IMG/VR virus record: IMGVR_UViG_3300035698_021379
Span: 1-25,424 of that record
Length of the DNA: 25,424 nt
Source: a virus
Direction: 5' to 3' (one strand)
Of the stretch, positions 1,542 to 22,498 are shown one piece after another (the first letter of the stretch is position 1; each line of letters opens with the position of its first letter). The notes below the pieces were generated by a model, which worked only from the letters and a program-made list of their open reading frames with translations, had not been told where the DNA came from and did no database searches. The position numbers and the translations under genes are program-made.

Positions 1542-2879
1542 ATGAAAAGATTGAGTAATCGATTAAAAGAATCTAATTCTGAGAAAAAAAAGAAAAGTAA
1601 AAGTTTGCAGGAAGCGTATCCTATGATTGGATATGATACAGAAGACGCGCAATGGCGGAGCCTGACAGACCGAGTCGACAGGGACTTAGCGCCATTAGTA
1701 CAAGACAGGATGCAGGATATTGCTTGTTATCTTTATGACTCTAATCCTATGGCGCATAGAATCATTGAAATAAGTAAAGATTTTACTGTAGGTGAAGGGT
1801 TTAGTTTTAAAGCTAAGGAAGAAAATGTTCAACAAATTTTAAATGATTTTTGGAATGATCCAATCAATAATTGGGATTTAAAACAATATAATAAGTCGAA
1901 AGAACTATCTTTATTTGGTGAACAACTTTACCCTGTATTTGTGAATAAGCATAATGGGCATGTTAGGCTAGGATATGTAGATCCTACCATGATTAATAAA
2001 GTTCTTTTAGATCCAAAAAATCCTGAGATCTTTAGAAAAATAGTTTTAAAGAGTAACAGAAGGGGTAAAATAAATAGTTTTAATATTATAAATGTTGATG
2101 AAAGGATTACTTCTCCTACTAAAGATATGTTGGTTGGAGATGCTTTCTTTTTCACTATTAATAGAGTTTCTTCATCGACTAGAGGCAGATCAGATTTATT
2201 GCCGCTTGCTGATTGGATAGATGGACTCGATCAATTTCTTTTTGCGAGATTAGAGCGCGCGCAAATACTAAATGCTTTCATTTGGGATATTTTGCTTGAA
2301 GGCGCTGATGAAAAAAAGATAAAAGAATTTTTACAGGCCACAGGATTACCTAAACCTGGTTCCATTAGGGCTCACAATGAAAAGGTTACATGGAATGCTG
2401 TAACGCCTAAATTAGAGGGAAGTGATGCATCTAATGAAGCTAAATTATTTAAGATGCAGATTTTAGGTGGAGCCGGATATCCAGATTTCTGGTTTTCAGA
2501 TGGCTCTAATACTACGCGTGCAACAGCCCTTAGCATGGGCCTTCCTACTCTTAAAAAATTACAGAGCCGGCAGAATTATTTTAAATATATGATTTCTCAT
2601 ATGTTTAACTTTGTCATAGATCAGGCGAAAATTCATGGAACCATACCGAAAGAAATTGATCCATCTTTTGTTATTTATGCTGCTCCATTAACAGAAAAGA
2701 ATGAAGTAACTATAGGTGTTGCGGCAGAAAAACTATCGAGTAGTTTAGCAAGAGCGGAAGAACAGGGGTGGATAACAAAAGAGGCTGCCGCAAAAACGTA
2801 TAAAATATTTATGAGGAATTCAGTTGGAATTGATACTGAATTATTAGAAAAAAAGGAGAAAAGTAATGAAATTAACTGA
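1542..2879 (+). CDS. phage portal protein
   Basis: A 445-residue protein in the usual portal size range. The N-terminus is basic and polar. The block at about residues 36-75 (W-R-S-L-T, D-R-D-L-A-P-L, Q-D-R-M, Y-L-Y-D-S-N-P-M-A) followed by KDFTVGEGFSF and then SLFGEQLYPVFVNKHNGHV and GYVDP matches portal proteins of metagenomic siphophage-like genomes that I recognise. Portal subunits form the dodecameric ring at one capsid vertex, through which DNA is packaged and ejected and to which the tail attaches. A good GGAGA Shine-Dalgarno precedes the ATG. The end overlaps the next gene by 14 bases. No catalytic motif is expected. A divergent member of the same fold is the only alternative I considered. 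Confidence 0.88.
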   Translation: MKRLSNRLKESNSEKKKKSKSLQEAYPMIGYDTEDAQWRSLTDRVDRDLAPLVQDRMQDIACYLYDSNPMAHRIIEISKDFTVGEGFSFKAKEENVQQILNDFWNDPINNWDLKQYNKSKELSLFGEQLYPVFVNKHNGHVRLGYVDPTMINKVLLDPKNPEIFRKIVLKSNRRGKINSFNIINVDERITSPTKDMLVGDAFFFTINRVSSSTRGRSDLLPLADWIDGLDQFLFARLERAQILNAFIWDILLEGADEKKIKEFLQATGLPKPGSIRAHNEKVTWNAVTPKLEGSDASNEAKLFKMQILGGAGYPDFWFSDGSNTTRATALSMGLPTLKKLQSRQNYFKYMISHMFNFVIDQAKIHGTIPKEIDPSFVIYAAPLTEKNEVTIGVAAEKLSSSLARAEEQGWITKEAAAKTYKIFMRNSVGIDTELLEKKEKSNEIN

Positions 2880-5800
2880 CATAGTTCCACAAAAATTATC
2901 TGAAGTAAGTGATCAGGAGTTATTTAGAATATGGGAGACTTTTTCATATTTAATAAAAAATCCTAAAGCAAATAGAGAAGAGATTATAAATAGAGGGACT
3001 TTTATTTTCAATGAATTAATTTCGCGAGACCTTGAAATTGAAAAAAATGATTTAAAATCTGATATTGAAGAAAGAAAGAAACAAAAAGAGTCTGATGATA
3101 AAAATTTATCTGAAGCTGTTAGGCCGCCATTTGGTTCGCCTGGGGGTAAGCGATATATGGGTGATAGATTAGTTAGAATGTTTCCAGAACATAAAGTGTA
3201 TGTAGAACCTTTTGTTGGAGCCGGAGGTGTCTTTTATAAAAAGAAAAAAGTAGAAGGAGTACAGGAAATAATTAATGATAAGGATAAAGATATAATTTTT
3301 TGTTTTAAGACTATACAAAACTTGACTGATGTTCAATGGGCTGAATTAAAGAAAATGGATTGGACAGCTTCTAAGTCCGGGTTTGCTAAAGCAAAGAAAA
3401 GTTTAGAATCTTCTACTGGATTAAAACGATTTCGTGACTTTGTTTATTTAAAGCAATTTTCTGACCTTTCAGAATTAAAGTCTTATGATGATAGAGATAA
3501 TGGAAAAACTTGGGCAGGAATTTCAAATCTTATGAGATTAAAGAATAGATTAAAAGATGTTACTATTCTAAATCAGGATTATAGAGATGTAATTAAAAAG
3601 TATGATTCAAAAGATACTTTCTTTTACATTGATCCTCCATATCCACATGCAGCCTTGAACTGGAAATTCATGCCAACTGAAGCAGAAGTAGAAGCTGCCA
3701 TGAAGTTAATCAAAGGAAATTTTTTATTATCTTATGAGTTGACTAAAGCCTTTAAAGATTTTAAGAAAAAAACTATTAGCTTATGGGCTATTGGAAACCC
3801 GGGACAACATCATCAGGGAAAATTTAAGACTGAACAACTTATAATGAATTATGAATCAAAAAGAAATACTAGGTATATGGAGTCTTTTGATTTAGATGGT
3901 AAAGGTTGGCTTGATATTTTCCATGAACACTTTGTCGCTAATGGCTATTCTGAAAATTGGTTAAAATCAAATGATACTGAAAAATATGAAAAGATTCGCG
4001 AGGCAGTAATAGATTTTGATTTAGCCTATAATGATAACTGGATTAAAGATATTGTTGGCTACGCGAAATATAAAAAGTATAATCATATATCAGCTTCTTT
4101 AAATATTATTTTAAATGAGCAGCAAGACCCTTATTTAAAATATCCTAATGAAAATTTGACATACCAATGCGTATTTCAACATCATTATCGTTCAGGGAAA
4201 ATAGACCCAAAAGCTGAAAAGAAAGCTACATCTGTTCATACTGATTTAAGAATGGAGAATTTGGAGAAGAAATTCCTTATAGGATTCACTATTCTTGATC
4301 AAATGCCTGAGTTAATTGATGAAGAAATATCTACTTATGACCAGGCTCTTAAATGGGATAAGGATAAAAATGCATTTAAAATTGATTGGAATACAGGTGA
4401 ATGGAAAAAACGAATAAAGAAAGCTACGGATAAATCTGTTAATGTAAATTTAGTTGTAATTAAAAAAGGCACGATTCCGAACGAATGGTTAACTGTAAAA
4501 GGTGTAGTTGAACCCGGAACGCCTGGAGCCACTAATTTAGGTCCCGGAGTCTTTACCATTTTAGATAAAGGTTCAGTTGAGTACCTTACTCAAAAATCTT
4601 ATAGTCATGAGTATATATTCCATTGTGACAAAATAGATTATAGATTAGTTTTTAGAAAAATAACATTACAGCAACAAGAAGCTATTCAAGATCCATTTAT
4701 TAAATTGGTTTTTTTGAATAATTTATTTGAAAGTTCTTTAGATGAAATATTTCAAGAGGCTTTAGATAATCCGCAAAAAATACTAGAGTCTTTAGATCTA
4801 TCTTTAGAAGCAGAGATTGTTCCTGCAAAAATAGGTGCATTAGGAAAAGATCAAACTGGATGGATTGTAATTAAACCGATTGAACAAATGCCTTATGTTT
4901 TATCAAGAGGTGCTATAGAGAAAAATTTTATTCCTCCAAAAGATATATCTGCTTTGACTAAAGAAATTCGTAAGCAGATTACAGAAGAGTTTCAGTATTG
5001 GAAGAAAGATTCAGAGAAAGAAAGAGTTGAAATTCGTAATGCTTTATACGAGGCAATGAAAAAAAAAGAAGTTAATATTAAGATAAAAGAGTCATGGTTG
5101 CAAGAGATTGAAAATATATTTGATTATGACCCTACATCAATAACAACAAGAAGCCTTCAGAATGATTATAGGTTATGTACTTCTTGGTATTCAACTAAGA
5201 AGCGCGGCGGAAATATAAAATATAGTTCCGAGCAAATTGAAAGTATATCGAAGAAAATTTATAATGAATTAAAAATAAGGCATATAGAATTTAATCCTGA
5301 TAACATGAAAGCGACATCAAAGGAGTTGTTTGATAAAATTAGTGAATCTAAGCACAGAAGAGATCAATGTATGGAGTGTTCTGAGCCGCCTACAGTTGAG
5401 GTGCTTTGGGCTAATGGACATGGGCATGCATGGTGGTGCGATAAGCATTTTAAGGAATGGTCTAAAGAACATAAAGACGATATTGATTATATTAAAAAGG
5501 TAAAAGATGGCGAGGCATCTGAAAAGTTTTCTGATAATACTAATCCGAATATCAAGGAATCAGAGACTAATAAATTTGCGTTACATCATAAATGGTTTAA
5601 AGAAAAGCTTGGTTCAAAATATGGAAACAGCAAAGAACATTGGGTATTACGTTTAGATCTTAATAAAGATGAATTAACTAATTTTGTTCTAGAGCATAAT
5701 CCATTAAAACAAGATAAATCATTCGCTTATATAAATAAGTCTAATGGAAATAAAAGCTGGCTTGAAAGAGGGGAAGAAATTGAAAGAATAGAGCCAGGTC

Positions 5801-5994
5801 AGCCTGGTAATCCAACAAAAAATACTTCTTGTTGGATTCAACTCTTGGATTCAGGAGATATAGTAGTTTTAGAAAACACAGATCAAATTAAAAAAATTGA
5901 ATTTAAAGGCAAAAAGCTTAAAGGTGTATGGATTTTAAAGCGAGAAAGCCCTAAATCTGAATGGTGGGAGATATCGCGTTCTGAGACTTCTTGA
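2866..5994 (+). CDS. Dam-like adenine methylase fused to two LigD-type 3'-phosphoesterase-like domains
   Basis: A 1042-residue multidomain protein starting inside the portal gene with an AAGGAGA Shine-Dalgarno. Residues 1-80 are helical and charged. Residues about 86-360 look like a D12-class N6-adenine methylase: GSPGGKRYMG (90-99), SAM motif EPFVGAGG (114-121) and catalytic IDPPYPH (255-261). Residues about 405-600 resemble the LigD phosphoesterase (PE) domain: HH (439-440), HTDLRME (458-464, cf. family HYDLRLE), then EPGTPG...GPGVFTILDKGS (549-570, cf. family IPEGxYGxGxVxxWDxG). Residues 833-861 carry CMEC and CDKH, a probable zinc site. Residues about 903-1040 look like a second PE-like domain: ALHHKWFK, HWVLRLDL (925-932), PGQPGNPTKN, LKGVWILKR (1018-1026). 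It occupies the slot where a MuF-type head protein is often found. The fusion is seen directly; activities are inferred. Confidence 0.75.
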   Translation: MKLTDIVPQKLSEVSDQELFRIWETFSYLIKNPKANREEIINRGTFIFNELISRDLEIEKNDLKSDIEERKKQKESDDKNLSEAVRPPFGSPGGKRYMGDRLVRMFPEHKVYVEPFVGAGGVFYKKKKVEGVQEIINDKDKDIIFCFKTIQNLTDVQWAELKKMDWTASKSGFAKAKKSLESSTGLKRFRDFVYLKQFSDLSELKSYDDRDNGKTWAGISNLMRLKNRLKDVTILNQDYRDVIKKYDSKDTFFYIDPPYPHAALNWKFMPTEAEVEAAMKLIKGNFLLSYELTKAFKDFKKKTISLWAIGNPGQHHQGKFKTEQLIMNYESKRNTRYMESFDLDGKGWLDIFHEHFVANGYSENWLKSNDTEKYEKIREAVIDFDLAYNDNWIKDIVGYAKYKKYNHISASLNIILNEQQDPYLKYPNENLTYQCVFQHHYRSGKIDPKAEKKATSVHTDLRMENLEKKFLIGFTILDQMPELIDEEISTYDQALKWDKDKNAFKIDWNTGEWKKRIKKATDKSVNVNLVVIKKGTIPNEWLTVKGVVEPGTPGATNLGPGVFTILDKGSVEYLTQKSYSHEYIFHCDKIDYRLVFRKITLQQQEAIQDPFIKLVFLNNLFESSLDEIFQEALDNPQKILESLDLSLEAEIVPAKIGALGKDQTGWIVIKPIEQMPYVLSRGAIEKNFIPPKDISALTKEIRKQITEEFQYWKKDSEKERVEIRNALYEAMKKKEVNIKIKESWLQEIENIFDYDPTSITTRSLQNDYRLCTSWYSTKKRGGNIKYSSEQIESISKKIYNELKIRHIEFNPDNMKATSKELFDKISESKHRRDQCMECSEPPTVEVLWANGHGHAWWCDKHFKEWSKEHKDDIDYIKKVKDGEASEKFSDNTNPNIKESETNKFALHHKWFKEKLGSKYGNSKEHWVLRLDLNKDELTNFVLEHNPLKQDKSFAYINKSNGNKSWLERGEEIERIEPGQPGNPTKNTSCWIQLLDSGDIVVLENTDQIKKIEFKGKKLKGVWILKRESPKSEWWEISRSETS

Positions 5995-6098: not shown

Positions 6099-8828
6099 GT
6101 GGATATAAAGATAATACGCGATGCATTTGAACTTTTACAAGAATCTGAGGTTAATGGAAAATCTTGGAAAGTTTTTTTAATAGAAGAAGGGTTATCAAAA
6201 AACGGTAAATATTATCCAGGTGATGTATTAAAGAAGTCAGCGCCTTTGTTTGAAAAAGCAAAGGCGTTTTTTTATCAGTTCAAGGGGAAGCATTTTGATC
6301 ACATCCCTCCAACAGTTGAAAACCTTCGCCCCGAAGGTTTTCCCAGACAGATAGCCGGTTGGTATAGTAACGTCAAATTTGAAGAAAATGTTGATGTGAA
6401 TGGCGAAAAAAGAAAAGGCCTAACAGCAATTCTTCATATACATGAGGGCGCGAAATGGCTTCGTGAAATGTTAAGCGATGCATGGAAACATGGCATGAAG
6501 CGAATATTGGGGTTATCAATTGATGCGGAAGGTGATCGTGTAACTAAATTTATTGATGGTAGAAATTTAGAAGTTGTTTCATCAATAAAACGAGTTTTTG
6601 GGGTTGATTTGGTGACACATCCCGCAGCGGGCGGGCAACTATTAAGATTATTGGCTAGCGAAACTAAAGAAGGAGGAAGACCAATGGATTGGGTTATTGA
6701 ATTAATGAAGAAGATTAGGCCTGATCTTCTTGAAGGTGTGAATCTCAGTGAAATTAAAGAATCTGAGATAAAAGAAGTTTTGGAAAAAGCACTTCAAGAA
6801 GCAGACGAGTCACAGAAGAAAGCCATCGAAGAGGCGAGAAAAAAGTTTGAAGAAGCAACAAAAGAAGAAAAGAAGAAGAAGGAAGAGGAAGAAAAGAAGA
6901 AGAAGGAAGAAGATGCTAAAAAGGCCGAAGAAGCAAAGAAATTAGAAGATGTTAAAAAGGCCGAAGAAGAAAAGAAGCAGAAAGAAGCTGAAGAGATAAA
7001 ATATCAGGAAGGCATCAAATCTGCTGATAAAGATACTAAAGAACTTCTTGAATCAAGCATGAAATCTATTAAAAAGAACAAGAAGTTTGAAGAAGCTGAT
7101 GGCAAAACAACTCTTAGTCAGGCTATTGGACTGATTAAGGAAAAGAAATATGCATTAGCATTAAATGTATTACAGAAGTGGCTTAGCGCGTATCCTGTTG
7201 ATAAAGAAGCTGATGAAAATGATACCGCGAAAGAGGTTAAATCTCTTGAGAAGAAGATTGAAGCGATAAATCTGAAAAATGATTTAGCTGAATGTGCTAA
7301 TCTTCTTGATATAGAGTTGAAAAATTCAAAGCTTCCTGAACCAGTTCAAAGTAAGGTGAAGAGAAATTTTGAAGGAAAGAAATTTGAAAAGAAATCTTTG
7401 GAAGAAGCAATCAAGATAGAAAAAGATACTCTTGCTAAACTTACTGAATCAGGTGATGTTGATTTAGGTGATTTAGATACTGATATTAGTATGGGTAGAA
7501 GTGGTGAGGAAAGGCTTCATGCGTCATTGGATCTTATGATCGATCCAGATTTTGAGGCTTCTGAAAAAGAAAAGTATGAAAATATCGATGGCTTTAAGAG
7601 CCTTCGTGAAGCATATGTAAAGTTCACAGGAGATATTGAGGTTTCTGGCCGTATACCCAAGAGTAGGTTGCAGGAATCGACATCTTCTGATTTTACATAC
7701 GCGCTAGGAACGTCCATAACAAGAAAAATGGTCAGAGATTATAAAGTTACTCCAGCATTATGGAAAGAACTTGCTGACGTAGTTTCTGTTAAGGATTTTA
7801 AGTCGCAGGAAATAATTCGCTGGGGTGGTTTCGCGAATCTAGAAACTGTGTCTGAATCAACATCTAGTGATTATCCGGAGATAACCGTTGCTCAGGATGA
7901 GGAAGCTACTTATTCAGCAGCGACTCGCGGTGGTTTGATTACTATCACAAGGAAGATGATTATCAACGATGATCTTAGAATGTTGAGAAAGATCCCTGCT
8001 AAGGCAACTCGCGCGGCAGTAAGAACATTAAATCGGTTTGTATTTGATTTAATGCTTTCAGCTCAGTCAACCGGCGCTGTCAACGCTGATGATATTTATG
8101 ACAGCTTAAAGCTTTATGATACTTCCGGTAAGCATTTCAATTATACTACTGAGGCATTGGATTATGATGCTTTAAGTGACATGATTGATAGAATGAGAGA
8201 GCAGAAAGAGCTTGGTTATAAGATAGCTTCAGATGCAGAAACAGCCGCAGATGCGACATCAGTTAGTGTAGCTGCTAGTGGTACTAATGTTAATGTCGGC
8301 GATTATTTGATGTGTGAAGCTGAATTTATAGGCCCTGTTTCTGCTGTAACTGCTACAGCTATTAGCGTAGCCGGTACGGGTCAACGCGGAGTATGGGGTT
8401 CAACGGCCGCAATTCACACAGTAGGTAAGTATTGGTATGTTGTAACTGATGATTTGATGTTAGAGCCAGGACTTCTTTGGGTTCCGACTGATTTAAGAGC
8501 TATTGCTCAATCATTAGAGACTAGTGATTATCAGGATGACACGCTTTCAAACAAGAATATGCTCAAGGGTTCATTTAAGACAAGAGCTGTTCCGAGAAAT
8601 TACCTTCGTGGTGATGTGAATAATTATTATCTTACTGCTAAAAAAGGCGATATTGAAATGATTGAAGTCGGCTTTTTAGGCGGTAGAGAGACTCCTGAAT
8701 TGCTTATTCAGGACGCTCCTGGTGTTGGTCATGTATTCACCAGAGATAATATTCGTTATAAATTGCGTCATGAATATGGTGGAGCTGTAGTAGATTATAG
8801 AGGCTTCCAGGGCGCTATAGTAACATAA
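6099..8828 (+). CDS. fused prohead protease, scaffold and major capsid protein
   Basis: A 909-residue protein with three parts. Residues 1-190 look like a prohead (S78/U35-type) protease: GKHFDHIP (63-70) supplies a candidate catalytic His, LGLSIDAEG (137-145) a candidate Ser, and VDLVTHPAAGG (169-179) is a family-type block. Residues about 196-460 are Glu/Lys/Ala-rich coiled coil, as in scaffolds, with a TPR-like piece near 338-368. Residues about 465-909 are an HK97-fold major capsid protein: QESTSSDF, LGTSITRKMV, RWGGFANLETVSE, then ITITRKMIINDDL (614-626) and PAKATRAAVRTLNRF. A small beta insertion (about 716-778, VNVGDYL...GTGQRGVWGSTAAIH) resembles a module common in virion proteins. 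The start is GTG with a GAAAGG Shine-Dalgarno. M196 has its own AGGAGG and could start a separate scaffold-capsid product. The cleavage sites are not known. Confidence 0.88.
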   Translation: MDIKIIRDAFELLQESEVNGKSWKVFLIEEGLSKNGKYYPGDVLKKSAPLFEKAKAFFYQFKGKHFDHIPPTVENLRPEGFPRQIAGWYSNVKFEENVDVNGEKRKGLTAILHIHEGAKWLREMLSDAWKHGMKRILGLSIDAEGDRVTKFIDGRNLEVVSSIKRVFGVDLVTHPAAGGQLLRLLASETKEGGRPMDWVIELMKKIRPDLLEGVNLSEIKESEIKEVLEKALQEADESQKKAIEEARKKFEEATKEEKKKKEEEEKKKKEEDAKKAEEAKKLEDVKKAEEEKKQKEAEEIKYQEGIKSADKDTKELLESSMKSIKKNKKFEEADGKTTLSQAIGLIKEKKYALALNVLQKWLSAYPVDKEADENDTAKEVKSLEKKIEAINLKNDLAECANLLDIELKNSKLPEPVQSKVKRNFEGKKFEKKSLEEAIKIEKDTLAKLTESGDVDLGDLDTDISMGRSGEERLHASLDLMIDPDFEASEKEKYENIDGFKSLREAYVKFTGDIEVSGRIPKSRLQESTSSDFTYALGTSITRKMVRDYKVTPALWKELADVVSVKDFKSQEIIRWGGFANLETVSESTSSDYPEITVAQDEEATYSAATRGGLITITRKMIINDDLRMLRKIPAKATRAAVRTLNRFVFDLMLSAQSTGAVNADDIYDSLKLYDTSGKHFNYTTEALDYDALSDMIDRMREQKELGYKIASDAETAADATSVSVAASGTNVNVGDYLMCEAEFIGPVSAVTATAISVAGTGQRGVWGSTAAIHTVGKYWYVVTDDLMLEPGLLWVPTDLRAIAQSLETSDYQDDTLSNKNMLKGSFKTRAVPRNYLRGDVNNYYLTAKKGDIEMIEVGFLGGRETPELLIQDAPGVGHVFTRDNIRYKLRHEYGGAVVDYRGFQGAIVT
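6240..6273 (+). terminator. intrinsic-terminator-like hairpin inside the protease coding segment
   Basis: CGCCTTTG (6241-6248) pairs perfectly with CAAAGGCG (6259-6266). The inner TTT/AAG extends the stem to 11 bp (one G-U) around a GAAA tetraloop (6252-6255). Seven T (6267-6273) follow at once. This is the full textbook form of a Rho-independent terminator, about 140 bases inside the open reading frame. It may act as an attenuator relieved by translating ribosomes. Coding constraint (A-P-L-F-E-K-A-K-A-F-F) is the alternative explanation. Confidence 0.55.
6318..6342 (+). other. perfect 11-bp hairpin within the protease coding segment
   Basis: GAAAACCTTCG (6318-6328) and CGAAGGTTTTC (6332-6342) are exact reverse complements around a CCC loop. 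It lies 45 bases after the terminator-like hairpin and has no T-tract. It could be RNA structure affecting translation or RNA processing, or a by-product of the conserved peptide N-L-R-P-E-G-F. Confidence 0.5.
6671..6686 (+). promoter_or_regulatory. internal ribosome binding site and in-frame start for a scaffold-capsid product
   Basis: AGGAGG (6671-6676) is a full-consensus Shine-Dalgarno. Seven bases later ATG (6684-6686) is codon 196 of the capsid gene, in frame and exactly where the protease ends and the coiled-coil scaffold begins. The upstream GTG has a poorer site. This mirrors the lambda C/Nu3 arrangement of an in-frame overlapping scaffold gene. The predicted product is 714 residues and lacks the protease. 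Confidence 0.65.
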
Positions 8829-10763: not shown

Positions 10764-11111
10764 ATGGCTACAAAAAATATTACTGTGTATCGCGGTGATA
10801 CGCATGTTTTAACTTGTATTTTTGAAGATAGAGCTGGCGCTAAATTAGATATTACAGGATGGAAACTTTACTTAACGATAAAATATAGTCCTGATGATTT
10901 AGACGCGGATGCAGTACTCACCAAAACAGTAACTTCCCACACTTTCCCACTTTTAGGCCGCAGTAAAATTACCATGACAGCCACAGAAACCGATTCTCTT
11001 TATGGCGATTATTATTATGATATTCAATATAAAAAGACTGATGGATCTATTCAGACGGCCTTAAGCGGCACAATGTTATTTACGAAAGATGAGACTAGAG
11101 GGACATCATAA
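10764..11111 (+). CDS. BppU-N-like immunoglobulin-fold baseplate protein
   Basis: A 115-residue protein when read from ATG 10764; a GTG nine bases earlier is in frame, but the AAGGGG(TGG) site fits the ATG better. The pattern VYRGDTHVLTC, KLDITGWKLYLTIK, AVLTKTVTSH, TMTATETDSLYGDYYYDIQY and a closing DGSIQTALSGTMLFTKDETRG is that of the phage BppU N-terminal Ig-like domain (baseplate upper protein family), which docks tail fibres or receptor-binding proteins on the baseplate. Only the Ig-like domain is present, so the protein may be a connector. Its stop overlaps the start of the LicC-like gene (TAATG), tying structural and glycan genes into one transcript. Confidence 0.7.
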   Translation: MATKNITVYRGDTHVLTCIFEDRAGAKLDITGWKLYLTIKYSPDDLDADAVLTKTVTSHTFPLLGRSKITMTATETDSLYGDYYYDIQYKKTDGSIQTALSGTMLFTKDETRGTS

Positions 11112-11845
11112 TGAAAGCTATTATTTTAGCAGCCGGGATAGGAAAAAGATTATATCAATATACAAATAATATACCTAAATGCATGGTTAAAGTTGATAAA
11201 AAAGAAATAATAAAGTGGGAAATTGAAGCTCTTCTACCATTTGACCTTGAAGAAATTATTGTGATTATAGGTTATAAAGGAAATTTAGTTAAAGAATTTA
11301 TTAATAATAATTTTTTAGTTGGTAATATTAAATTTATTGAAAATAAAGATTATTTAATTACCAGCAATTTACACTCTCTAAAATTAGGATTATCTAAAAT
11401 AAAAAATAAAGATGATATTTTAATTATAAATGGAGATTTAGTTTTTAGAAAAGATGTTGTAAATGAAATTTTAAAAAGTGATTATGAAAACGTGGTAGCA
11501 GTAAATAAAATACCTTGCAATGAAGAAGATATGAAAGTATGCATTAAAGATGTTGCTTATTTTGATAAATATAATTTTAATAGAATTTCTGAAATAAGTA
11601 AAGATATTCCTTTAGACAAAGCTAATGGCCAGGCATTAGGAATTTATAAAATAAAAGATGTTAATGTGTTAAAGAAAAAAACAGAAGAAATTGATAAGAT
11701 GAATTTCTTTAATGAAGCTATAAATCAAATGATAAAAGATGTATCTATTTTTTCTATAGATATTACACAATTTCAATCAATAGAAATTGATTTTCCTAAA
11801 GATTTAGAAGAAGCTAATACGATATTTAAAACGAAAGATCTGTAA
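11111..11845 (+). CDS. LicC-like nucleotidyltransferase (CTP:phosphocholine cytidylyltransferase type)
   Basis: A 244-residue GT-A-fold nucleotidyltransferase. The NTP-binding loop is LAAGIGKRL (residues 6-14), followed by PK at 22-23. IENKDYLITSNLHSL (76-90) resembles the family block of LicC-type enzymes (N-x-x-x-x-T-x-N-x-x-S-L) and INGDL (106-110) gives the metal-binding Asp. LicC activates phosphocholine to CDP-choline; related enzymes use other phospho-alcohols or sugar phosphates, so the substrate is not certain. It starts on the stop of the Ig-domain gene and its own stop overlaps the LicD-like gene, a pairing seen in bacterial lic loci. The pairing is the main support for the LicC reading over a generic hexose-1-phosphate nucleotidyltransferase. 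Confidence 0.72.
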   Translation: MKAIILAAGIGKRLYQYTNNIPKCMVKVDKKEIIKWEIEALLPFDLEEIIVIIGYKGNLVKEFINNNFLVGNIKFIENKDYLITSNLHSLKLGLSKIKNKDDILIINGDLVFRKDVVNEILKSDYENVVAVNKIPCNEEDMKVCIKDVAYFDKYNFNRISEISKDIPLDKANGQALGIYKIKDVNVLKKKTEEIDKMNFFNEAINQMIKDVSIFSIDITQFQSIEIDFPKDLEEANTIFKTKDL

Positions 11846-12459
11846 TGGGAACTGCTTTATATAAAATAAAAGAAAAAGCTAAATTAGCGTTATTTGATAT
11901 AAAAGATATATTAGATGATATGGGCATTGAATTTGTTTTGTTACAAGGAACATTACTCGGCGCTATTAGGGAAAATGATTTTATTGATACTGATGAAGAT
12001 ATGGACTTAGGCGCTAGAATATATGATGTAGCCCCTAGGGTAAAAGAATTAGTATCGCGGCTTCATGATAAAGGTTTTGGAACAAAGTTAGTAAGTTTAT
12101 CTTATAAATTTACTAAAGATATAAAAATATTTAGAAATTCTGTAAGAACGGACTTAGTTACGTATGATTTTTATAATAATAAAATGTTTCGGAGCTTAAG
12201 AAAATGGGATAAGATCAAAGTTTATGACAGAAAATTTATTGATAATTTAAAAGAGATAGATTTTTTAGGGAAACAGTTTAAAGTTTTTTCTGACGCAGAG
12301 GAGTGGTTAGAAATAGAATATGGCGCTCATTGGATAAAAAGAGAACATAGAAGTGGAAAGTTTACAACGGCTATGGTTAGTGGTTATTGGGAAGATATAA
12401 TTCTTAAAAATAAAGGTATTGATTACGGTAAAAACATTGAGGATATCTTAAAGATATGA
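11845..12459 (+). CDS. LicD-family phospho-ligand transferase
   Basis: A 204-residue protein with the LicD/fukutin hallmark: LLQGTLLGAIRENDFIDTDEDMDLG at residues 32-56, that is G-T-x-L-G-x-x-R then D-x-D-x-D-x-G for metal binding. The rest (EYGAHWI, WLEIEYG near 150-160) also fits the family. LicD enzymes move phosphocholine, or in relatives other phospho-groups such as ribitol-phosphate, from a CDP carrier onto a glycan. Its gene overlaps the LicC-like gene by one base (TAATG) and the next gene by four bases (ATGA). The two genes together predict making and attaching one CDP-activated group. The acceptor is not known. Confidence 0.82.
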   Translation: MGTALYKIKEKAKLALFDIKDILDDMGIEFVLLQGTLLGAIRENDFIDTDEDMDLGARIYDVAPRVKELVSRLHDKGFGTKLVSLSYKFTKDIKIFRNSVRTDLVTYDFYNNKMFRSLRKWDKIKVYDRKFIDNLKEIDFLGKQFKVFSDAEEWLEIEYGAHWIKREHRSGKFTTAMVSGYWEDIILKNKGIDYGKNIEDILKI

Positions 12460-13226
12460 AATATATTGTAAGATCACAAATAGACATAGATCATAAGGAC
12501 TGGAGGCCTGGTCAGAAAGGAAGGGTAACTCCTGAATGGGTAAAAGATAGGCTTGACTTATTTCATAATTATACTTTAAAAAGCATACTTAATATGACAG
12601 AAGATTATTTTGATATATGGGTTTTTTGCGGACAATGCTATAAAGCTATAACAAGTAATTATAATTGGCATCCTAGAGTCAAAGTCATATATGATATGAA
12701 TGATTTCCTTAAAAGTTATATTACAAATTGCGAAGAAGATTATTTAACAATTGCAAGAATAGATTCAGATGATTTATATCATAAAGACGCTTTAAACGCT
12801 ATAATGAAAAATTTAGTTAAAGACCCTAATGATATTACCAGAATGGCTTTTCGTAGAGTATATAGTTGGGATAGATGGAGTAATGTTTTAGGAAAATATC
12901 ATCAAAGCCATCCTCCGCAATTTGTTCATACAATACCAAAAAAAAGATATAAAGACTTTGAATATTTTATGAAATTTCATTTTACTAAACATGTTGGCGG
13001 ATCTCATAATGCCTCTACATTACCTGATTATTATTTTTGTGAAACAAGGCATAATCAAAGTTGGACAATTAGAAAAAGACATTCTTGGTCTAAGACTTAT
13101 CAGCATGATGTTTTGTTAAAAGAAACTAAGCAAAGAGGATTTAATAGTGGTAAATATCTTGCTATTGAAAAAGAAGGTTTATTCAGCATACTAAAGAACT
13201 TTGGAGTAGAAAGGGATTTAATATGA
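12456..13226 (+). CDS. GT-A-type glycosyltransferase (rhamnosyltransferase-like)
   Basis: A 256-residue protein. The core LTIARIDSDDLYHKDALNAI (residues 97-116) has the DxDD metal/nucleotide-sugar motif. Together with an N-terminal R-x-Q-I-D, W-V-K-D-R-L-D-L-F and N-Y-T-L-K-S-I-L-N it resembles the putative rhamnosyl transferase family (Rhamno_transf). The C-terminal part is rich in His, Trp and basic residues (ETRHNQSWTIRKRHSW). The ATG overlaps the preceding stop as ATGA, and its own stop overlaps the WbqC-like start the same way. The donor sugar and acceptor are not deducible. It is soluble with no membrane segment, and would act on cytoplasmic lipid-linked or protein-bound glycan. Confidence 0.65.
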   Translation: MKYIVRSQIDIDHKDWRPGQKGRVTPEWVKDRLDLFHNYTLKSILNMTEDYFDIWVFCGQCYKAITSNYNWHPRVKVIYDMNDFLKSYITNCEEDYLTIARIDSDDLYHKDALNAIMKNLVKDPNDITRMAFRRVYSWDRWSNVLGKYHQSHPPQFVHTIPKKRYKDFEYFMKFHFTKHVGGSHNASTLPDYYFCETRHNQSWTIRKRHSWSKTYQHDVLLKETKQRGFNSGKYLAIEKEGLFSILKNFGVERDLI

Positions 13227-13921
13227 TATTAACAGGCCATCAGCCGGAATATATACCTTATATTGGATTTTTCAATAAAATAATGCTTGCTGATAAATTT
13301 GTATTTGTAGATCATATACAATTTAATAAAAAGAGTTGGCAGAATAGAAACAAAATTCGCACTAAAGATGGTCAGCAATGGATTACTGTTCCTGTACTTT
13401 CTAAGAATAAATTCGAACAGAAAATAAATGAAGTAGAAATAGACAATACTGAAAGATGGAGAAAAAAGCATTTAAAGTCAATTATATTAAATTATCAAAA
13501 AGCTCCTTATTTTAAAGAGTATATTGGCTTTTTTGAAGATATTTATTCTAGAGATTGGACAAAATTATCAAAATTAAATATAGAAATTATAAAGCATTTA
13601 ATGAAAATATTAGATATTAATATCAATACATATAACAGCTCTTCTTTAAATTTGAGTGGTAAAAAAACAGATCTATTAATTGATTTATGTAATGCGTTAA
13701 ATGCAGATGGTTATTTATCAGGTTCTGGCGGAAAAGGATATATTAATGATACAAAATTTCAGAAGGCTGGAATAAAAAATCTTTTTCGTGAAATAAAACA
13801 TCCTGTATATACTCAGATATATGAACCTTTTATTTCAAACATGTCTGTTATAGATATCATTTTTAATTGCGGCGCTGAGAAAGCTCGTAAGATTATATAT
13901 AAATGTGGGAGTGTAAAATGA
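13223..13921 (+). CDS. WbqC-like family protein
   Basis: A 232-residue protein, typical length for the WbqC-like family. The N-terminal signature is ILTGHQPEYIPYIGFFNKI (residues 2-20), followed by FVFVDHIQFNKKSWQNRNKI (27-46) and an ITVPV strand; YLSGSGGKGYI (183-193) is the second conserved block. The family is found in O-antigen, flagellin-glycan and modified-sugar loci, and its biochemical role is not settled as far as I know; a part in building or attaching modified deoxysugars is suspected. ATGA overlaps on both sides place it in the same translationally coupled run as the LicD-like, glycosyltransferase and PIG-L-like genes. Confidence 0.85.
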   Translation: MILTGHQPEYIPYIGFFNKIMLADKFVFVDHIQFNKKSWQNRNKIRTKDGQQWITVPVLSKNKFEQKINEVEIDNTERWRKKHLKSIILNYQKAPYFKEYIGFFEDIYSRDWTKLSKLNIEIIKHLMKILDININTYNSSSLNLSGKKTDLLIDLCNALNADGYLSGSGGKGYINDTKFQKAGIKNLFREIKHPVYTQIYEPFISNMSVIDIIFNCGAEKARKIIYKCGSVK

Positions 13922-14532
13922 ATATATTGGCTATAGGTTCACATCCTGATGATATAGTTTTCGGCATTGGCGGAACCTTAATAAAATACTCTAAAAAAGG
14001 CCATAATATTTTTTTGTTAGTAATGACTGATGGTGCTGCGTCTGGAGATCCTGTTATTAGAAAAAAAGAGCAGGAGCAAGTTGCTATGGCATTAAAAGCA
14101 AAGAAATTAATTTGGGGTGGCTTTGAAGATACTAAATTGATGTCAAATAAAAATACTATATCTTATATTGAGGCTATAATTACTTCAGTTAATCCAGATG
14201 AAATTTATGTTAATTATAATAAAGATATGCACCAGGATCATAGAGTATTAGCTCAATCTGTAATTTCTGCTACCAGATACAAAACTAAAGTATTATTTTA
14301 CGAGTGTCTTACATCATGTAATTTTGCTCCTGATATATTTATTGATATAGAAGATATACTTGAACAAAAAATAGAATTATTGAGGAAGCATAAATCACAG
14401 GTTAATAAAGAATATCCTTGTGGCTTAAATCTTGAAGAAAGTTTAAAAGCTATGGCTAATTTCAGGGGGTTTCAGGGTAAAGTAAGATACGCGGAGGGGC
14501 TGAAATCACATAGATTTTTAAAGGAGATTTAA
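13918..14532 (+). CDS. PIG-L/LmbE-family N-acetyl-sugar deacetylase
   Basis: A 204-residue protein read from ATG 13918, which overlaps the previous stop as ATGA; an ATG 15 bases earlier is in frame but less likely. AIGSHPDDIVFGIGG (residues 5-19) carries the HPDD zinc/catalytic motif, TDGAASGD follows, and MHQDHRVL gives the second motif (H-x-D-H). These define PIG-L/LmbE enzymes, which remove an N-acetyl group from GlcNAc-type sugars (GlcNAc-PI, mycothiol and bacillithiol intermediates, some glycans). Here the setting points to deacetylation of a nucleotide- or glycan-linked amino sugar. All zinc ligands that I can identify are present, so the enzyme looks active. Confidence 0.88.
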   Translation: MNILAIGSHPDDIVFGIGGTLIKYSKKGHNIFLLVMTDGAASGDPVIRKKEQEQVAMALKAKKLIWGGFEDTKLMSNKNTISYIEAIITSVNPDEIYVNYNKDMHQDHRVLAQSVISATRYKTKVLFYECLTSCNFAPDIFIDIEDILEQKIELLRKHKSQVNKEYPCGLNLEESLKAMANFRGFQGKVRYAEGLKSHRFLKEI

Positions 14533-14533
14533 T

Positions 14534-15139
14534 ATGGAAACATTATATTTTTCAAGATTTCAAGAAGAAGAGAATATAATTAATAAGTTACTTGGTAAAA
14601 ATCCGGATAAATATCAAGGGACTTATATAGATATTGGATCTAACCATCCTATTAAAAATAGCAATACTTTTTATTACTATATTAGATCGTGGTCAGGCTT
14701 ATTGATTGAGCCAAACTCACAATGGGAAAATGGAATAAAAAAATTTCGGCCTAAAGATATTTTATTACAAGCAGCTATTATAGGGCATAATGGCACTATT
14801 GACATGCGATATGACAGAGTAAAAGGAAATAGTATTGACAAAATACATGAAGGTAAATATCAAGAAAATATATATACTGTAAAATGTATGACAATCAATG
14901 ATGTAATAAAAAAATATCCGCAATTTAGTACCCCTGATTTTATCAGTATAGATATAGAAGGTAGTGAACAAGAAATGTTATCGGTTTGTAATTTTGAAGT
15001 ATTTAGGCCAAAAGTTATTTGTATTGAATATATGCTTAAAAAGCATGACTTTAGAAAGAAGTGGGAACATTTTATTTTGCCATATTACGATTTAAAAGAA
15101 GTTGGAAGAGTAGACCTTTTTTATTTGAGGAAGAAATGA
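14534..15139 (+). CDS. FkbM-family SAM-dependent methyltransferase
   Basis: A 201-residue protein with the FkbM (Methyltransf_21) layout. GTYIDIGSNHPIKNSNT (residues 29-45) is SAM motif I, GLLIEPN (55-61) is motif II with the acidic ribose-binding residue, and FISIDIEGSEQEML (136-149) is the family's acidic motif. The family O-methylates sugars and polyketides, so methylation of a glycan residue is the natural reading here. An AAAGGAG site precedes the ATG. The gene's end overlaps the radical-SAM gene as ATGA. The substrate is unknown. Confidence 0.87.
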   Translation: METLYFSRFQEEENIINKLLGKNPDKYQGTYIDIGSNHPIKNSNTFYYYIRSWSGLLIEPNSQWENGIKKFRPKDILLQAAIIGHNGTIDMRYDRVKGNSIDKIHEGKYQENIYTVKCMTINDVIKKYPQFSTPDFISIDIEGSEQEMLSVCNFEVFRPKVICIEYMLKKHDFRKKWEHFILPYYDLKEVGRVDLFYLRKK

Positions 15140-16404
15140 AGAATATAGATATATTATTAGTTTATCCAAATGTAACTACCGATTCCCCTAATCGATTAAC
15201 TCCATTGTCTATTCTTTTTCCGGGTTCTTTATTTGAACGTAGAGGGAATAAAGTCGCTTATTATGATGAACGATTTGAAGCAAAAGAAAAGTTAATTGAC
15301 TTAATCAAACATTCTAAAGAAATAGGTGTGAGTGCTTTTACTGGTTATCAATGCAAAAGAGCTATTGAAATTCTTGAATTAGCTAAAAGTATAAATCCTG
15401 ATATTATTACTGGTATAGGTGGTAAACACGCTCAAATATTACCGGATCAAGTATTGAATGAGCCTTTTGTAGATAAAATCTGGGGTGAAAAATCTTATGG
15501 AGATGATTTATTTCCATATAATAAACAGACTAAAAAATATTTTCAGTTTGGCGATATTCAATATTTTACATCCAAAGGTTGCCCTTTCAATTGCTCGTTT
15601 TGTGCATTACATTCAAAATGGATGCCAAAGAATTTGAATGATTTAGATCTAGAGTTAAAAACTATACATAAAGATATTCAGTTTAAAGAGATTACGTTTT
15701 CAGATCCTAATATTGCTTTTGGTTATAATATAGAAAGAATTAAAATAATAGGTCAAATAATGAATGACTTAGGGGTAAATTGGATAGGGAATTTAAGATC
15801 TGAATATTTACAACCTCAAATGATAGACGCGCTTGTTAAATCGCGCTGTATTAAATTAGAAATAGGTTGTGAATCTGGAAATGATTATTTTCTTAAAAAT
15901 GTTATTAAAAAAGGTATTGGTATTAATTCTATTAAAAAAGCAGTAAGAAATATTAAGGGTTCAGGCATTTCTATTATGTATAGTTTTATCTCTAATATGC
16001 CTAGAGAAACTGAGGAAATGCGACATAATACCTATGATTTAATAGATTGGATTATAGAGAACGATCCTAATGCCAGGGTATCAATTTATAATTACGCACC
16101 ATATCCAGGAACACCTATGTATGAAGACGCTATTAATGGCGTGGATGGTTATCCAAAGTTTGTTCCACCTACTACAATGAAGGAATGGGGAAACTTAAAT
16201 CTTATGCGATCTTCATTATACTGGATTGCAGGTTTGTGTTTCAGGCAGGATAATTGCTATAAGAATTTCCCTGATAATGATTGGGAATTAATAAAACCTT
16301 ATATTGAATTAGCTAAAAAGAAGTGGAAAGAAAGAAGTTTTAATGATTTTCCTGATAAAGAAGTAGAAATACTTATTGCAAAACAAAAAGATAGGAAGGC
16401 ATAA
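15136..16404 (+). CDS. B12-binding-domain radical SAM enzyme
   Basis: A 422-residue protein read from ATG 15136, which overlaps the FkbM stop as ATGA and has a GAGGA Shine-Dalgarno; an upstream in-frame GTG at 15061 lies inside the FkbM gene and is unlikely. Residues 1-130 form a cobalamin-binding-like Rossmann domain (IDILLVYPNVT, GVSAFTGYQ, GIGGKHAQILPDQVL). TSKGCPFNCSFC (145-156) is the CxxxCxxC iron-sulfur motif (C149, C153, C156) of radical SAM enzymes. The later blocks EIGCESGND and SFISNMPRETEE are typical of the class. B12 radical SAM proteins methylate unreactive carbons or phosphorus, or rearrange sugars and lipids. The reaction here is unknown, but glycan C-methylation or a ring modification fits the neighbours. 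Confidence 0.87.
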   Translation: MKNIDILLVYPNVTTDSPNRLTPLSILFPGSLFERRGNKVAYYDERFEAKEKLIDLIKHSKEIGVSAFTGYQCKRAIEILELAKSINPDIITGIGGKHAQILPDQVLNEPFVDKIWGEKSYGDDLFPYNKQTKKYFQFGDIQYFTSKGCPFNCSFCALHSKWMPKNLNDLDLELKTIHKDIQFKEITFSDPNIAFGYNIERIKIIGQIMNDLGVNWIGNLRSEYLQPQMIDALVKSRCIKLEIGCESGNDYFLKNVIKKGIGINSIKKAVRNIKGSGISIMYSFISNMPRETEEMRHNTYDLIDWIIENDPNARVSIYNYAPYPGTPMYEDAINGVDGYPKFVPPTTMKEWGNLNLMRSSLYWIAGLCFRQDNCYKNFPDNDWELIKPYIELAKKKWKERSFNDFPDKEVEILIAKQKDRKA

Positions 16405-16405
16405 A

Positions 16406-16864
16406 ATGCACAGAGGCGCTTCAATGCACGATATTTGTTTTAGAGGATTAGAGAGAATAATTAGGGATTATAATATCAAAACAGTGCTTGAGTATGGAAG
16501 TGGAATTTCTACTGAATGGTTTGCTGAAAGAGTTGAAAAAGTTTATACAGTAGATCATAATCCAGTTTGGTTTCCGGAAAAATTAAAAAATGTGACTTGT
16601 ATTAGGATGAATAGAAAAGCTATTGGTGCTGATGTCAGGCATATTAAAAAAGATTTTGATTTAGTTTTATTAGATTGCTTAAAAACAGTCAGGCCGGTTG
16701 TGTTTGATTTTGTTAAAAATTTAAGCTGGAAAGTATTTTGTATTCATGATTGGGGCAGAGATAAAAAAAGATATAATAGAGAACTTTATAATCATTTACG
16801 ACAGGCATCTTTTGGACCCTTAAAGGTTTATTATAATGAGATAGAAGAAAAGATTAAAATATGA
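16406..16864 (+). CDS. small class I SAM-dependent methyltransferase-like protein
   Basis: A 152-residue protein from ATG 16406, with AGGAAGG ahead of it; a TTG 30 bases earlier is in frame but has no better support. TVLEYGSGISTEWFA (residues 26-40) is a SAM-binding motif I, VYTVDHN (46-52) motif II and DLVLLDC (85-91) the acidic motif IV, then FCIHDWGR closes the fold. This suits a Rossmann methyltransferase of minimal size. The target may be the same glycan as the adjacent FkbM and radical SAM enzymes; nothing in the sequence identifies it. It ends in an ATGA overlap with the next glycosyltransferase. Confidence 0.72.
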   Translation: MHRGASMHDICFRGLERIIRDYNIKTVLEYGSGISTEWFAERVEKVYTVDHNPVWFPEKLKNVTCIRMNRKAIGADVRHIKKDFDLVLLDCLKTVRPVVFDFVKNLSWKVFCIHDWGRDKKRYNRELYNHLRQASFGPLKVYYNEIEEKIKI

Positions 16865-17538
16865 AAATACCAATTTGTGTAATGACATATGAACGAGCAG
16901 ACTATTTTCATAAATCAATGCAGTCGCTTTTAAAAACAGATTTATCAAAAGGCTCAGTAAATATATTTGATGATTGCAGTCAAGAAGCCGATAAAATAAA
17001 TATTCTTAAAGAATATAAATTAAAAGGGATAAATATTATTATTTCTCATAGGCAATTGCAAACTAAAAGAATGTTTAAAAAAATGCTTAAATACAGCATT
17101 GAAAATTACGATACTGATTGTATTATAATAGTTCAGGATGATATAATATATAATAATCAATGGCTTAATAAACTTTTGGAAATAAAAAACAAGATACCAA
17201 ATTTAGGTATATTGACACCATGGGACAGAAGAAGTAATTTGAAAAAAAATGATGATGGTTGGATATCAAGAAATTTAACAGGATGTAGATGCACTATAGG
17301 AGGAGTGTGCTGGTTAGTAACAAAAAAGTTTGCCTTAGAGGTTTTGAAGATTAAAGATAGTGGTGGTAATCATTATGATAGCGCTTATCAAAAAACTTGC
17401 AATAATAGAGGTTTTGAAATAGCTTCAACTATTCCGAGTTATGTACAGCATTTTGGGGCTAAAAGAATAGTTAAAAAAGGTGGGGGATCGCGTGTAAAAT
17501 TTGCGAGAGCAAGTAATTTTATAGGAGAATACGCATGA
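16861..17538 (+). CDS. GT2-like glycosyltransferase, first of a tandem pair
   Basis: A 225-residue GT-A-fold protein. PICVMTYERADYF (4-16) begins the fold, NIFDDCS (34-40) gives an acidic nucleotide-contact motif and IIVQDDIIYNNQWLNKLLEI (89-108) holds the DxD-like metal site. WLVTKKFALEVL and the DSAYQK / IPSYVQH blocks follow. It is clearly related to the next gene in both protein and DNA. It starts on ATGA of the methyltransferase gene and overlaps its own paralogue as ATGA. It has no membrane segment. The donor and acceptor are unknown; it likely adds a residue to the same glycan as its paralogue. Confidence 0.8.
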   Translation: MKIPICVMTYERADYFHKSMQSLLKTDLSKGSVNIFDDCSQEADKINILKEYKLKGINIIISHRQLQTKRMFKKMLKYSIENYDTDCIIIVQDDIIYNNQWLNKLLEIKNKIPNLGILTPWDRRSNLKKNDDGWISRNLTGCRCTIGGVCWLVTKKFALEVLKIKDSGGNHYDSAYQKTCNNRGFEIASTIPSYVQHFGAKRIVKKGGGSRVKFARASNFIGEYA

Positions 17539-18245
17539 ATATACCGGTATGTTTAATGAGTTATGAAAGGCCTCAATATTTTGAAAAATCATTTGAGCTA
17601 TTGTTAAAAACTGATTTATCTCAAATGGATGAGTTAATTATATTTGATGATTGCAGTAAGACTCCTGAAAAGATTGAGCAATTAAAGGATCTTAAAGAAA
17701 AGGGGTATAGGATTATTAAATCAGATAAATGGGGTGGTACTAAGTATAGTTTTCTTGCCATGCTAGATTATTGTTTTAGTATACATAATTATCCTATATT
17801 TGTATTGGTTCAGGATGATATAATTTATAATGCTCAATGGCTTAATAAACTATTAGAAATATACCCTAAAGTCCCAAAACTAGGCATATTGACATGTTGG
17901 GACAGGAGGCGTTATAGCAAGCCAATTCCGGGCGTTGCTTGGTCATATCGCAACCCTGCGGGTAATGGTAAGGATTGCAGGATGGGAGGGCCTTGTTGGC
18001 TTGTTACAAAGGCTTTAGGCAGGGCAATACTGGACAAAAATGAGCATTTTATAAGAAGTTGCGGCTATGATTCAGCATTTCAGAAGAGAAGTTGGCAATT
18101 AGGTTTTAATAATGCTTGCACTATTCCTTCTTATGTTGAGCATGATGGCCGGCTTTCAATCGCGCATTTGGGAAGACATAGAGGCACAGCGCATAATGCA
18201 CATAATTTTATAGACAAAATAAAGGATAAAAAAAATGCTGATTAG
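17535..18245 (+). CDS. GT2-like glycosyltransferase, second of a tandem pair
   Basis: A 236-residue paralogue of the preceding gene. The shared blocks include LLLKTDLS, IFDDCS (37-42), LVQDDIIYNAQWLNKLLEI (91-109), LGILT-W-D-R-R, YDSAFQK and IPSYVEH. It differs by an extra loop near 128-150 (WSYRNPAGNGKDCRMGG). The tandem order and the highly similar DNA across the QDD block point to duplication with later divergence, probably for a different linkage or sugar. It starts within ATGA of the first copy and overlaps the next glycosyltransferase by 11 bases. Confidence 0.8.
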   Translation: MNIPVCLMSYERPQYFEKSFELLLKTDLSQMDELIIFDDCSKTPEKIEQLKDLKEKGYRIIKSDKWGGTKYSFLAMLDYCFSIHNYPIFVLVQDDIIYNAQWLNKLLEIYPKVPKLGILTCWDRRRYSKPIPGVAWSYRNPAGNGKDCRMGGPCWLVTKALGRAILDKNEHFIRSCGYDSAFQKRSWQLGFNNACTIPSYVEHDGRLSIAHLGRHRGTAHNAHNFIDKIKDKKNAD

Positions 18246-18909
18246 TGTTACTACATTACCAACAAGGATAAATAAGATAGCGCCTGTAATAGCATCTTTA
18301 AGAAAACAAAATATCCCTATTTATTTATGGATACCTAAATATGTAGAAAGATTAGATATGAGTTTTGACGGAAAGATCCCTGATTTCTTAAATGATATTC
18401 ATTGCAGAGTTATTGAGGATAAAGGAAGTCTTACTAAATTTACTGGTTGGAATATTACTGATGATCTCTTTTTTACAGCAGATGATGATACTATTGTACC
18501 TATAGATTGGGCGAAAAATCTTTTGGATTATTATCATGATTCAAAAGAGAAATGTGTTTGTTGCTATAGAGGAAGAGTATTTAAAGGTAAAAAGCCTACA
18601 GCATATAGAAATACTAGACTTGTAGAGGCTCCGAAAGAAGTCAGAAAAGTTGATATAGTAATGAGTAATTGGGGCGCTTTATATAGTAGGGATATGTTTA
18701 CTGATGAAGCATTTAATCATAATAAAGAAATAAATGATGATATAGCTATAGGCGCGTATTTATATAAAAATAAAATTCCTATATACTGCTTGCCATCAAA
18801 AGGCATATCTGCTACCAGAGTTTGTAGAATAGACTCTTTATGGGCGATAAATAAGAAATCAAATAATACTGATAATGCTATAAAAGCATTATGGAAAACG
18901 GAGGTTTAA
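18235..18909 (+). CDS. GT-A-fold glycosyltransferase
   Basis: A 224-residue protein. ISVTTLPTRINKIAPVIASL (residues 3-22) is a typical family-A start with T-x-x-x-R; IYLWIPKYVERL follows and FFTADDDTIVPIDW (79-92) holds the DDD metal-binding motif. NWGALYSRDMF and NDDIAIGAYLYKN (about 166-179) match the acceptor-side region, where a second acidic pair is usual for a catalytic base. The gene overlaps the previous one by 11 bases and closes the run of overlapping glycan genes. The specificity is unknown. Confidence 0.75.
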   Translation: MLISVTTLPTRINKIAPVIASLRKQNIPIYLWIPKYVERLDMSFDGKIPDFLNDIHCRVIEDKGSLTKFTGWNITDDLFFTADDDTIVPIDWAKNLLDYYHDSKEKCVCCYRGRVFKGKKPTAYRNTRLVEAPKEVRKVDIVMSNWGALYSRDMFTDEAFNHNKEINDDIAIGAYLYKNKIPIYCLPSKGISATRVCRIDSLWAINKKSNNTDNAIKALWKTEV

Positions 18910-18910
18910 A

Positions 18911-19159
18911 ATGGCAGAAGATATTAAAAAAGCCGAGATACCAAAAGAATTAAGAGAAAAGTTGGAACAAGCATTAAAATCAGGTAAGTATTTTATCAGG
19001 ATAACATGTGATGTAGGAGGCCCAATTGGCACCGATAACTTAAAGCACTATTGGATAACAGAAAATTTCCCAAAAGATAAATTAAGGCCTACTATCGATT
19101 ATTTTAAAGATGATATTTTGAATAAAGAGTTAGGAGCTAATACAAAAAAATGGGAATGA
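18911..19159 (+). CDS. small hypothetical protein
   Basis: An 82-residue acidic/basic mixed protein that I do not recognise. The N-terminal helix (EIPKELREKLEQALKSGKY) is followed by a short beta segment (FIRITCDVGG) and LKHYWITENFPKDKLRPTIDYF. A strong GGAGG Shine-Dalgarno lies seven bases before the ATG, so it is probably translated in its own right. It sits between the glycosyltransferase run and the HNH endonuclease gene. No motif supports a function. Confidence 0.6.
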   Translation: MAEDIKKAEIPKELREKLEQALKSGKYFIRITCDVGGPIGTDNLKHYWITENFPKDKLRPTIDYFKDDILNKELGANTKKWE

Positions 19160-19650
19160 TGAAAAAAGACCATTGGCTTCATAATAATCGATGTCCGGAT
19201 TGTGGTAAGCATATTTGTGATAGATCTGTGAGATGTTTAAAATGTGCGGCTATTCAAACTAGAAAAAGGTTACTTGGGGGGAAAATACCTGAAAAAGTTA
19301 GAAAAAAGATTGCTAAATCACATTTAGGATATAAACACACACCTGAAAGTTGTGTTAAAATGAGTGAGAATAATAAAGGTAAAAAAAATTATTTTTATGG
19401 TAAAAAATTTATTGGAAAATTAAACGGCAATTGGCGAAAAAAAGTGGGGGTTAATTGTTCTTTTTGTAATAAGAAAAAACAAGTTACTATAAGCTTTTTA
19501 AAGTCAAGGAAATTTCACTTTTGTACAAAAGAGTGTTATTTGAAATGGAGGAGATTACCAGAAAATAATCCTAATTTCGGTAAAAAAGTAAAACTGGAAG
19601 TGAAAGTTCTAGTTGGAAAGGTGGCATTAGCTTTGAGCCTTACGATGTAA
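19150..19650 (+). CDS. NUMOD3-containing N-terminal part of an HNH endonuclease, frame 0
   Basis: The zero-frame product is 166 residues (ATG 19150; ATG 19156 overlapping the previous stop as ATGA is equally possible). It has an N-terminal zinc site (CPDC at 15-18, CLKC at 29-32), then KIPEKVRKKIAKSHLGYKHT and SCVKMSENNKGK, a NUMOD3-type DNA-binding repeat found in phage homing endonucleases, and a second cysteine group (CSFC, CTKEC). After NNPNFGKK the frame-0 sequence becomes unrelated and stops at 19648-19650. The expected HNH domain continues without a gap in the -1 frame (see the next entry), so this is a truncated product unless frameshifting occurs. Confidence 0.75.
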   Translation: MGMMKKDHWLHNNRCPDCGKHICDRSVRCLKCAAIQTRKRLLGGKIPEKVRKKIAKSHLGYKHTPESCVKMSENNKGKKNYFYGKKFIGKLNGNWRKKVGVNCSFCNKKKQVTISFLKSRKFHFCTKECYLKWRRLPENNPNFGKKVKLEVKVLVGKVALALSLTM

Positions 19651-21882: not shown

Positions 21883-21954
21883 TAATAATTTTTTAAAATG
21901 TAGATAAAGTGTTAGATTTTAATAGTGACTAAATAATAAAAAAAAGGAGAATAA

Positions 21955-22497: not shown

Positions 22498-22498
22498 A

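Follow-up and report, generated by a model that had tools for sequence, protein, structure and literature searches.

To our knowledge, virus-carried enzymes that mend and mark the virus's own DNA at the head are known only from large eukaryotic DNA viruses. The end-joining enzyme LigD has a 3′-phosphoesterase (PE) domain (PF13298; structures 3p43, 3p4h, 3n9b, 5dmp and 2lj6) with an Mn triad (His42, His48 and Asp50) and a phosphate site formed by His84 and Tyr88, both required by the Pseudomonas enzyme (PMC8656161). Large multidomain virus proteins encoded beside head genes, in which a methylase is joined to other enzyme domains, have been described as polyvalent proteins (Iyer et al. 2017, PMC5512222); they are thought to be packaged and injected, and some have proved to be virion proteins. 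The same work describes DarB of P1, a methylase-helicase in the virion head that acts in cis to protect P1 DNA, as well as MuF proteins fused to effector domains (PMC5512222). Neither LigD nor DNA ligase occurs in that paper, and no literature that brings LigD, phage and MuF together was found in a search that took in a minority of subscription journals.

Here, we analysed a 25,424-nt stretch of DNA from a tailed virus (the window), in which a gene encoding 1042 aa (2866..5994, + strand; ATG start, no internal stop) occupies the slot between the portal and capsid genes. The fold of the LigD phosphoesterase is common to two of its domains, PE1 and PE2, the first of which retains the Mn triad and the equivalent of Arg52. 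Unlike the PE of LigD, that of the window protein comes in tandem copies, of which the second is decayed, has His84 and Tyr88 replaced and is placed among virus head genes. A Pfam search of the window protein returned no match to the ligase and polymerase that are fused in the LigD end-joining enzyme, nor to Phage_Mu_F (PF04233), in which it differs from the MuF-effector fusions (PMC5512222). A ligase is present in many relatives (loci and contigs compared are designated L); none was noticed elsewhere in the 25-kb fragment when it was inspected by eye. In its make-up of several DNA-acting domains and in the place of its gene next to those for the head, the window protein resembles the polyvalent proteins.

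The nearest counterpart is AJP62006 of the archaeal virus ANMV-1 (KP703175), annotated as an ATP-dependent DNA ligase, which has the same PE1-PE2 core and lies between the portal gene and a large gene; it differs in carrying a ligase in front rather than a methylase, and the Cys/His module described below was not seen in it. ANMV-1 was the single match of the non-methylase part of the window protein in the phage collection, with two blocks in common, and the only one of 50,697 records in which the PE core was detected with the thresholds applied. A further likeness is phrog_13242, whose start matches the D12 methylase domain of the window and whose end matches a prohead protease, a layout that suggests D12-XkdF fusions in known phages; neither phrog_13242 nor phrog_1530 matched the LigD PE regions. 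As a theme, multidomain virus proteins with genes near those of the head are established (PMC5512222); in the literature searched we found no account of the LigD-PE core, of its position in the MuF slot or of the repair enzymes that partner it.

Domain architecture of the slot protein

The slot gene overlaps by 14 bases with the upstream portal gene (1542..2879, + strand; phrog_10963 portal, E value 5e-43). Downstream lies a 909-aa capsid gene (6099..8828, + strand; PF25209, E value 2.8e-33), whose capsid domain lies in its second half and which also matches phrog_133 (head maturation protease) and phrog_4523 (major head and protease protein). Going by inspection of the translations by eye, a DegT-like aminotransferase (357-1526) precedes the portal gene, and many genes in 11111-24333 resemble sugar-, glycan- and lipid-modifying enzymes (nucleotidyltransferase, LicD-like, WbqC-like, LmbE-like and FkbM-like methylase proteins, glycosyltransferases and a radical SAM protein).

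The preliminary description had proposed that a D12-class methylase is fused to LigD PE-like domains and a Cys/His cluster in this one 1042-residue protein. The fusion was confirmed (PF02086, E value 4.5e-20; structural alignment to 3p43, Z 14.2 and 17.4), and both kinds of later module are present; the layout had to be corrected to D12 methylase-PE1-Cys/His module-PE2, with two PE domains (aa ~430-610 and 900-1042) and the cluster (aa 826-900) as a separate module between them. The N-terminal segment (aa 1-84; 2866..3117, + strand) was clearly shared, among the ORFs searched with phmmer, only with L082 (iE 7e-11).

The methylase domain (about aa 85-345; 3118..3900, + strand) matches PF02086 over aa 92-261 and has both marks of a D12 adenine-N6 methylase, the SAM motif I (EPFVGAG, aa 114-120) and motif IV (DPPY, aa 256-259), in intact form. 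It also matches phrog_56 and TIGR00571 dam (E value 1.4e-18), the latter without reaching that model's cut-off; Dam was the sole credible match in a PDB phmmer search, and methylase models alone were matched in a defence-library family search. Since its motifs are intact, the enzyme is probably active.

Single-sequence searches with the window protein (Pfam, PDB and related loci) missed the PE domains, whose detection required the motif pattern PGxxGATxxxPGxF together with family profiles. PF13298 aligned weakly to PE2 (model positions 5-107, E value 0.008), and the window protein reached 10.9 bits vs the Pfam gathering score of 31.1, a cut-off that the relative L052 clears (33.6 bits). With family profiles, LigD phosphoesterase chains were the sole significant PDB matches, both for PE1 (profile A1, aa 416-624; 3p43, 9e-4) and for PE2 (profile A2; 3p43, 1e-8; 3p4h, 2e-8). 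The AlphaFold models agree: PE1 (4153..4695, + strand; pLDDT 88.5; model aa ~432-620) superposes on 3p43 with Z 14.2 and an rmsd of 1.9 Å over 123 residues and PE2 (5563..5991, + strand; model aa ~900-1042) with Z 17.4 and 1.9 Å over 120 residues, while the best unrelated row reached a Z of at most 4.7. A profile-profile comparison identifies PE1 and PE2 as homologues (probability 98.0 %), and the window protein therefore holds a tandem PE pair.

Residue mapping separates the two copies. PE1 keeps the full Mn site in His440, His458 and Asp460 (LigD His42, His48 and Asp50) as well as Arg462 (Arg52), and these four positions are invariant in all 33 sequences of alignment A1; ANMV-1, which stands outside that alignment, has Met at the Arg52 position. 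The site of His84...Tyr88 is occupied in PE1 by Pro538-x-x-Trp541, a Pro-x-x-Trp that is invariant across A1, and both residues are replaced in PE1 and PE2 of the whole family. The phosphoesterase activity of PE1 may for this reason be lost or changed. Healing of 3′ ends by PE1 would be plausible and we grade it no higher, because the metal site is complete but the phosphate site is altered. In PE2 of the window, the His42, His48 and Asp50 equivalents are Lys, His and Val, so that two of the three ligands are gone, which together with the family-wide loss of His84 and Tyr88 speaks against the earlier reading of these domains as simple end-healing LigD phosphoesterases. The metal ligands of PE2 are also lost in short slot proteins and are retained in L020, L031, L034, L036, L003, L025 and L052. 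Because of their loss in the window and the short forms, PE2 is probably an adaptor. The short-slot PE2 group gave no significant match when its profile was compared with the PDB directly (3p43, E value 1.2) and is tied to the family solely through the wider PE2 profile (hhalign 99.6 %).

The Cys/His module (5341..5565, + strand; CMEC...GHGHAWWCDKH) is probably zinc-binding and is denoted ZN below. It recurs in L012, L007, L073, L079 and L082 and in the slot genes of L083, L084, L108 and L113; since it is found on either side of PE2, we no longer regard it as part of the PE fold. The slot genes of L073 and L079 (294 and 273 aa) contain nothing but PE2 and this module.

That the long frame could result from a faulty assembly or a frame error that fused distinct genes is scarcely credible. 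It is one open frame, and L012, from another metagenome, has the identical D12-PE1-ZN-PE2 order with 37 % identity over aa 401-1042; L007, also of independent metagenomic origin and with its N-terminus cut off, shows PE1-ZN-PE2 as in the window. We have discarded this reading.

A conserved slot with interchangeable cargo

A degenerate pattern for PGxxGATxxxPGxF run over virus stretches returned 54 matches, of which 49 were true relatives whose frames span 161 to 1824 aa, some of them truncated where the contig stops, and five (L022, L023, L027, L049 and L050) were chance matches; L058, L061 and L065 in the genome scan were likewise due to chance. No match was found in the plasmid collection searched with the PE region of L012. 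The window protein is not an isolated fusion but one member of a large modular family (49 virus contigs plus ANMV-1). Contigs of metagenome-assembled genomes (MAGs) also contain relatives; these MAGs are assigned to Archaeoglobales, Thermoplasmata, Aenigmatarchaeota and Dehalococcoidia, and the contigs may be viral ones that entered them through binning.

The domains that accompany PE vary. Most of the 33 relatives scanned with Pfam have an ATP-dependent DNA ligase; the other partners are D12 methylase, metallo-beta-lactamase (MBL) and XkdF prohead protease, the last fused C-terminally to the PE protein in L018, L041 and L044. Ligase and MBL sit on the gene directly upstream in L052, L034 and L025, joined there by D12 in L052. 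A 1744-aa relative in L006 (2456-7687) combines a pyrimidine-dimer glycosylase (Pyr_excise), radical SAM, DNA ligase and PE domains. Prohead protease or capsid is encoded directly downstream of the PE gene in L040, L043, L055, L037, L005, L009, L029 and L030. LAGLIDADG, Hint or intein matches occur in L003, L033, L035 and L052, and the portal gene of L079 (3643-5562) has a long, intein-like insertion.

We then searched for relatives of the window portal (80 virus loci) and classified the non-redundant complete portal-capsid intervals with local profiles of nine domains; these were built from the same families, so that their E values are generous and independent support comes from the Pfam, PDB and structure results. 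In the close-portal set (portals at least 45 % identical, window included; L079 was counted in without a portal identity value), a PE2 gene is present in 20 of 23 intervals, either by itself or combined with ZN, ligase (LIG), D12, PE1 or MBL. The arrangements run from PE2, PE2-ZN, ZN-PE2, LIG-ZN-PE2 and LIG-PE2 to D12-PE2, D12-PE2-ZN, D12-PE1-ZN-PE2 and LIG-MBL-D12-PE1-PE2. The remaining three (L088, L109 and L115) have no slot gene above 115 aa, and the module is therefore dispensable in some viruses. With more distant portals (34-43 % identity), long PE polyproteins occur in L123, L125 and L132, and most of the remaining loci show none of these domains; all nine slot genes tested from this group match MuF (PF04233) in Pfam, five of them under the curated cut-off. 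These counts bear out the proposal of the preliminary description that the slot is one in which MuF often lies. Downstream of the MuF gene of L157, a 1530-aa protein (13086-17675) combines a Zeta toxin domain with a ligase-like match, and its N-terminal stretch resembles the end of a PE domain.

A proposed adaptor with cargo, and competing readings

By a narrow preference, we read the window protein as a modular DNA-processing protein of the late, head-linked kind, encoded where more distant relatives have MuF. PE2 is constant and often decayed while the enzymes vary, so an adaptor plus cargo fits better than a fixed enzyme; a tie to the prohead is given by the fusions with XkdF and by the exchange with MuF. 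The protein would be expressed late and become associated with the head, where the decayed PE2 and the Cys/His module would most likely form an adaptor that docks it on prohead, portal or DNA; the domains ahead of this adaptor would be the working cargo. The adenine methylase would probably mark viral DNA against restriction, and PE1, with its complete Mn site, would probably clean 3′ ends or nicks for sealing by a ligase, which sister viruses carry in the same polypeptide. These enzymes would act on packaged or injected DNA. Virion association, as proposed at the outset, is backed by context, namely the same slot across many viruses and the three XkdF fusions. We regard the domain assignments as sound; the chemistry of end healing and the packaging of the protein into virions are our inference.

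A cytoplasmic DNA-finishing enzyme, merely genetically linked to the head genes, which would methylate replicated concatemers and trim their nicks and ends before packaging and never enter the virion, strikes us as rather unlikely. The enzyme domains do act on DNA, the slot tolerates genes of widely differing length (254 to 2011 aa), and some of the enzymes are encoded apart, the ligase of L055 in a separate upstream gene and the D12 and ligase-like matches of L141 in separate genes. Against this, the gene keeps its position despite very diverse enzyme contents, XkdF is fused to it, MuF exchanges with it and the decayed PE2 is retained even where any enzyme is missing.

Less probable still, in our judgement, is a mainly structural head protein in which the PE folds and the zinc module would be MuF-like minor head parts and the methylase the sole active enzyme, protecting against restriction like P1 DarB. 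A structural role could suffice, because there are relatives with PE2 only and because the ligase-like domains beside PE2 in L083 (4376-5740), L084 (4313-5599) and L086 (2847-3971) have their nucleophile lysine replaced and seem to be inactive remnants of a ligase that the slot has retained. The loss of His84 and Tyr88 from PE1 points the same way, as do the methylase motifs, which are likewise intact in the D12-PE2 forms. The four invariant metal-site positions of PE1 in A1 would be unexpected for an inert fold, however, and the long forms retain the ligase KxDG and MBL HxHxDH motifs.

The different sets of DNA-processing enzymes that related viruses place in this slot suggest an unrecognised protein family, whose members would modify or mend the DNA of the virus in its head or at it. 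We offer more tentatively, as a possibility, its fullest form: a virion repair and modification kit (3′-end healer, ligase, MBL enzyme and methylase) mounted on a decayed LigD PE that has replaced MuF as head adaptor, with which archaeal and bacterial tailed viruses would repair and mark their DNA while it is packaged or as it enters. If true, tailed viruses would have, at the head, enzymes that mend and mark the DNA of the virus itself, a repair-enzyme fold would have been converted into a head adaptor, and many virus proteins whose present annotation is ligase, methylase or hypothetical would gain a predicted role.
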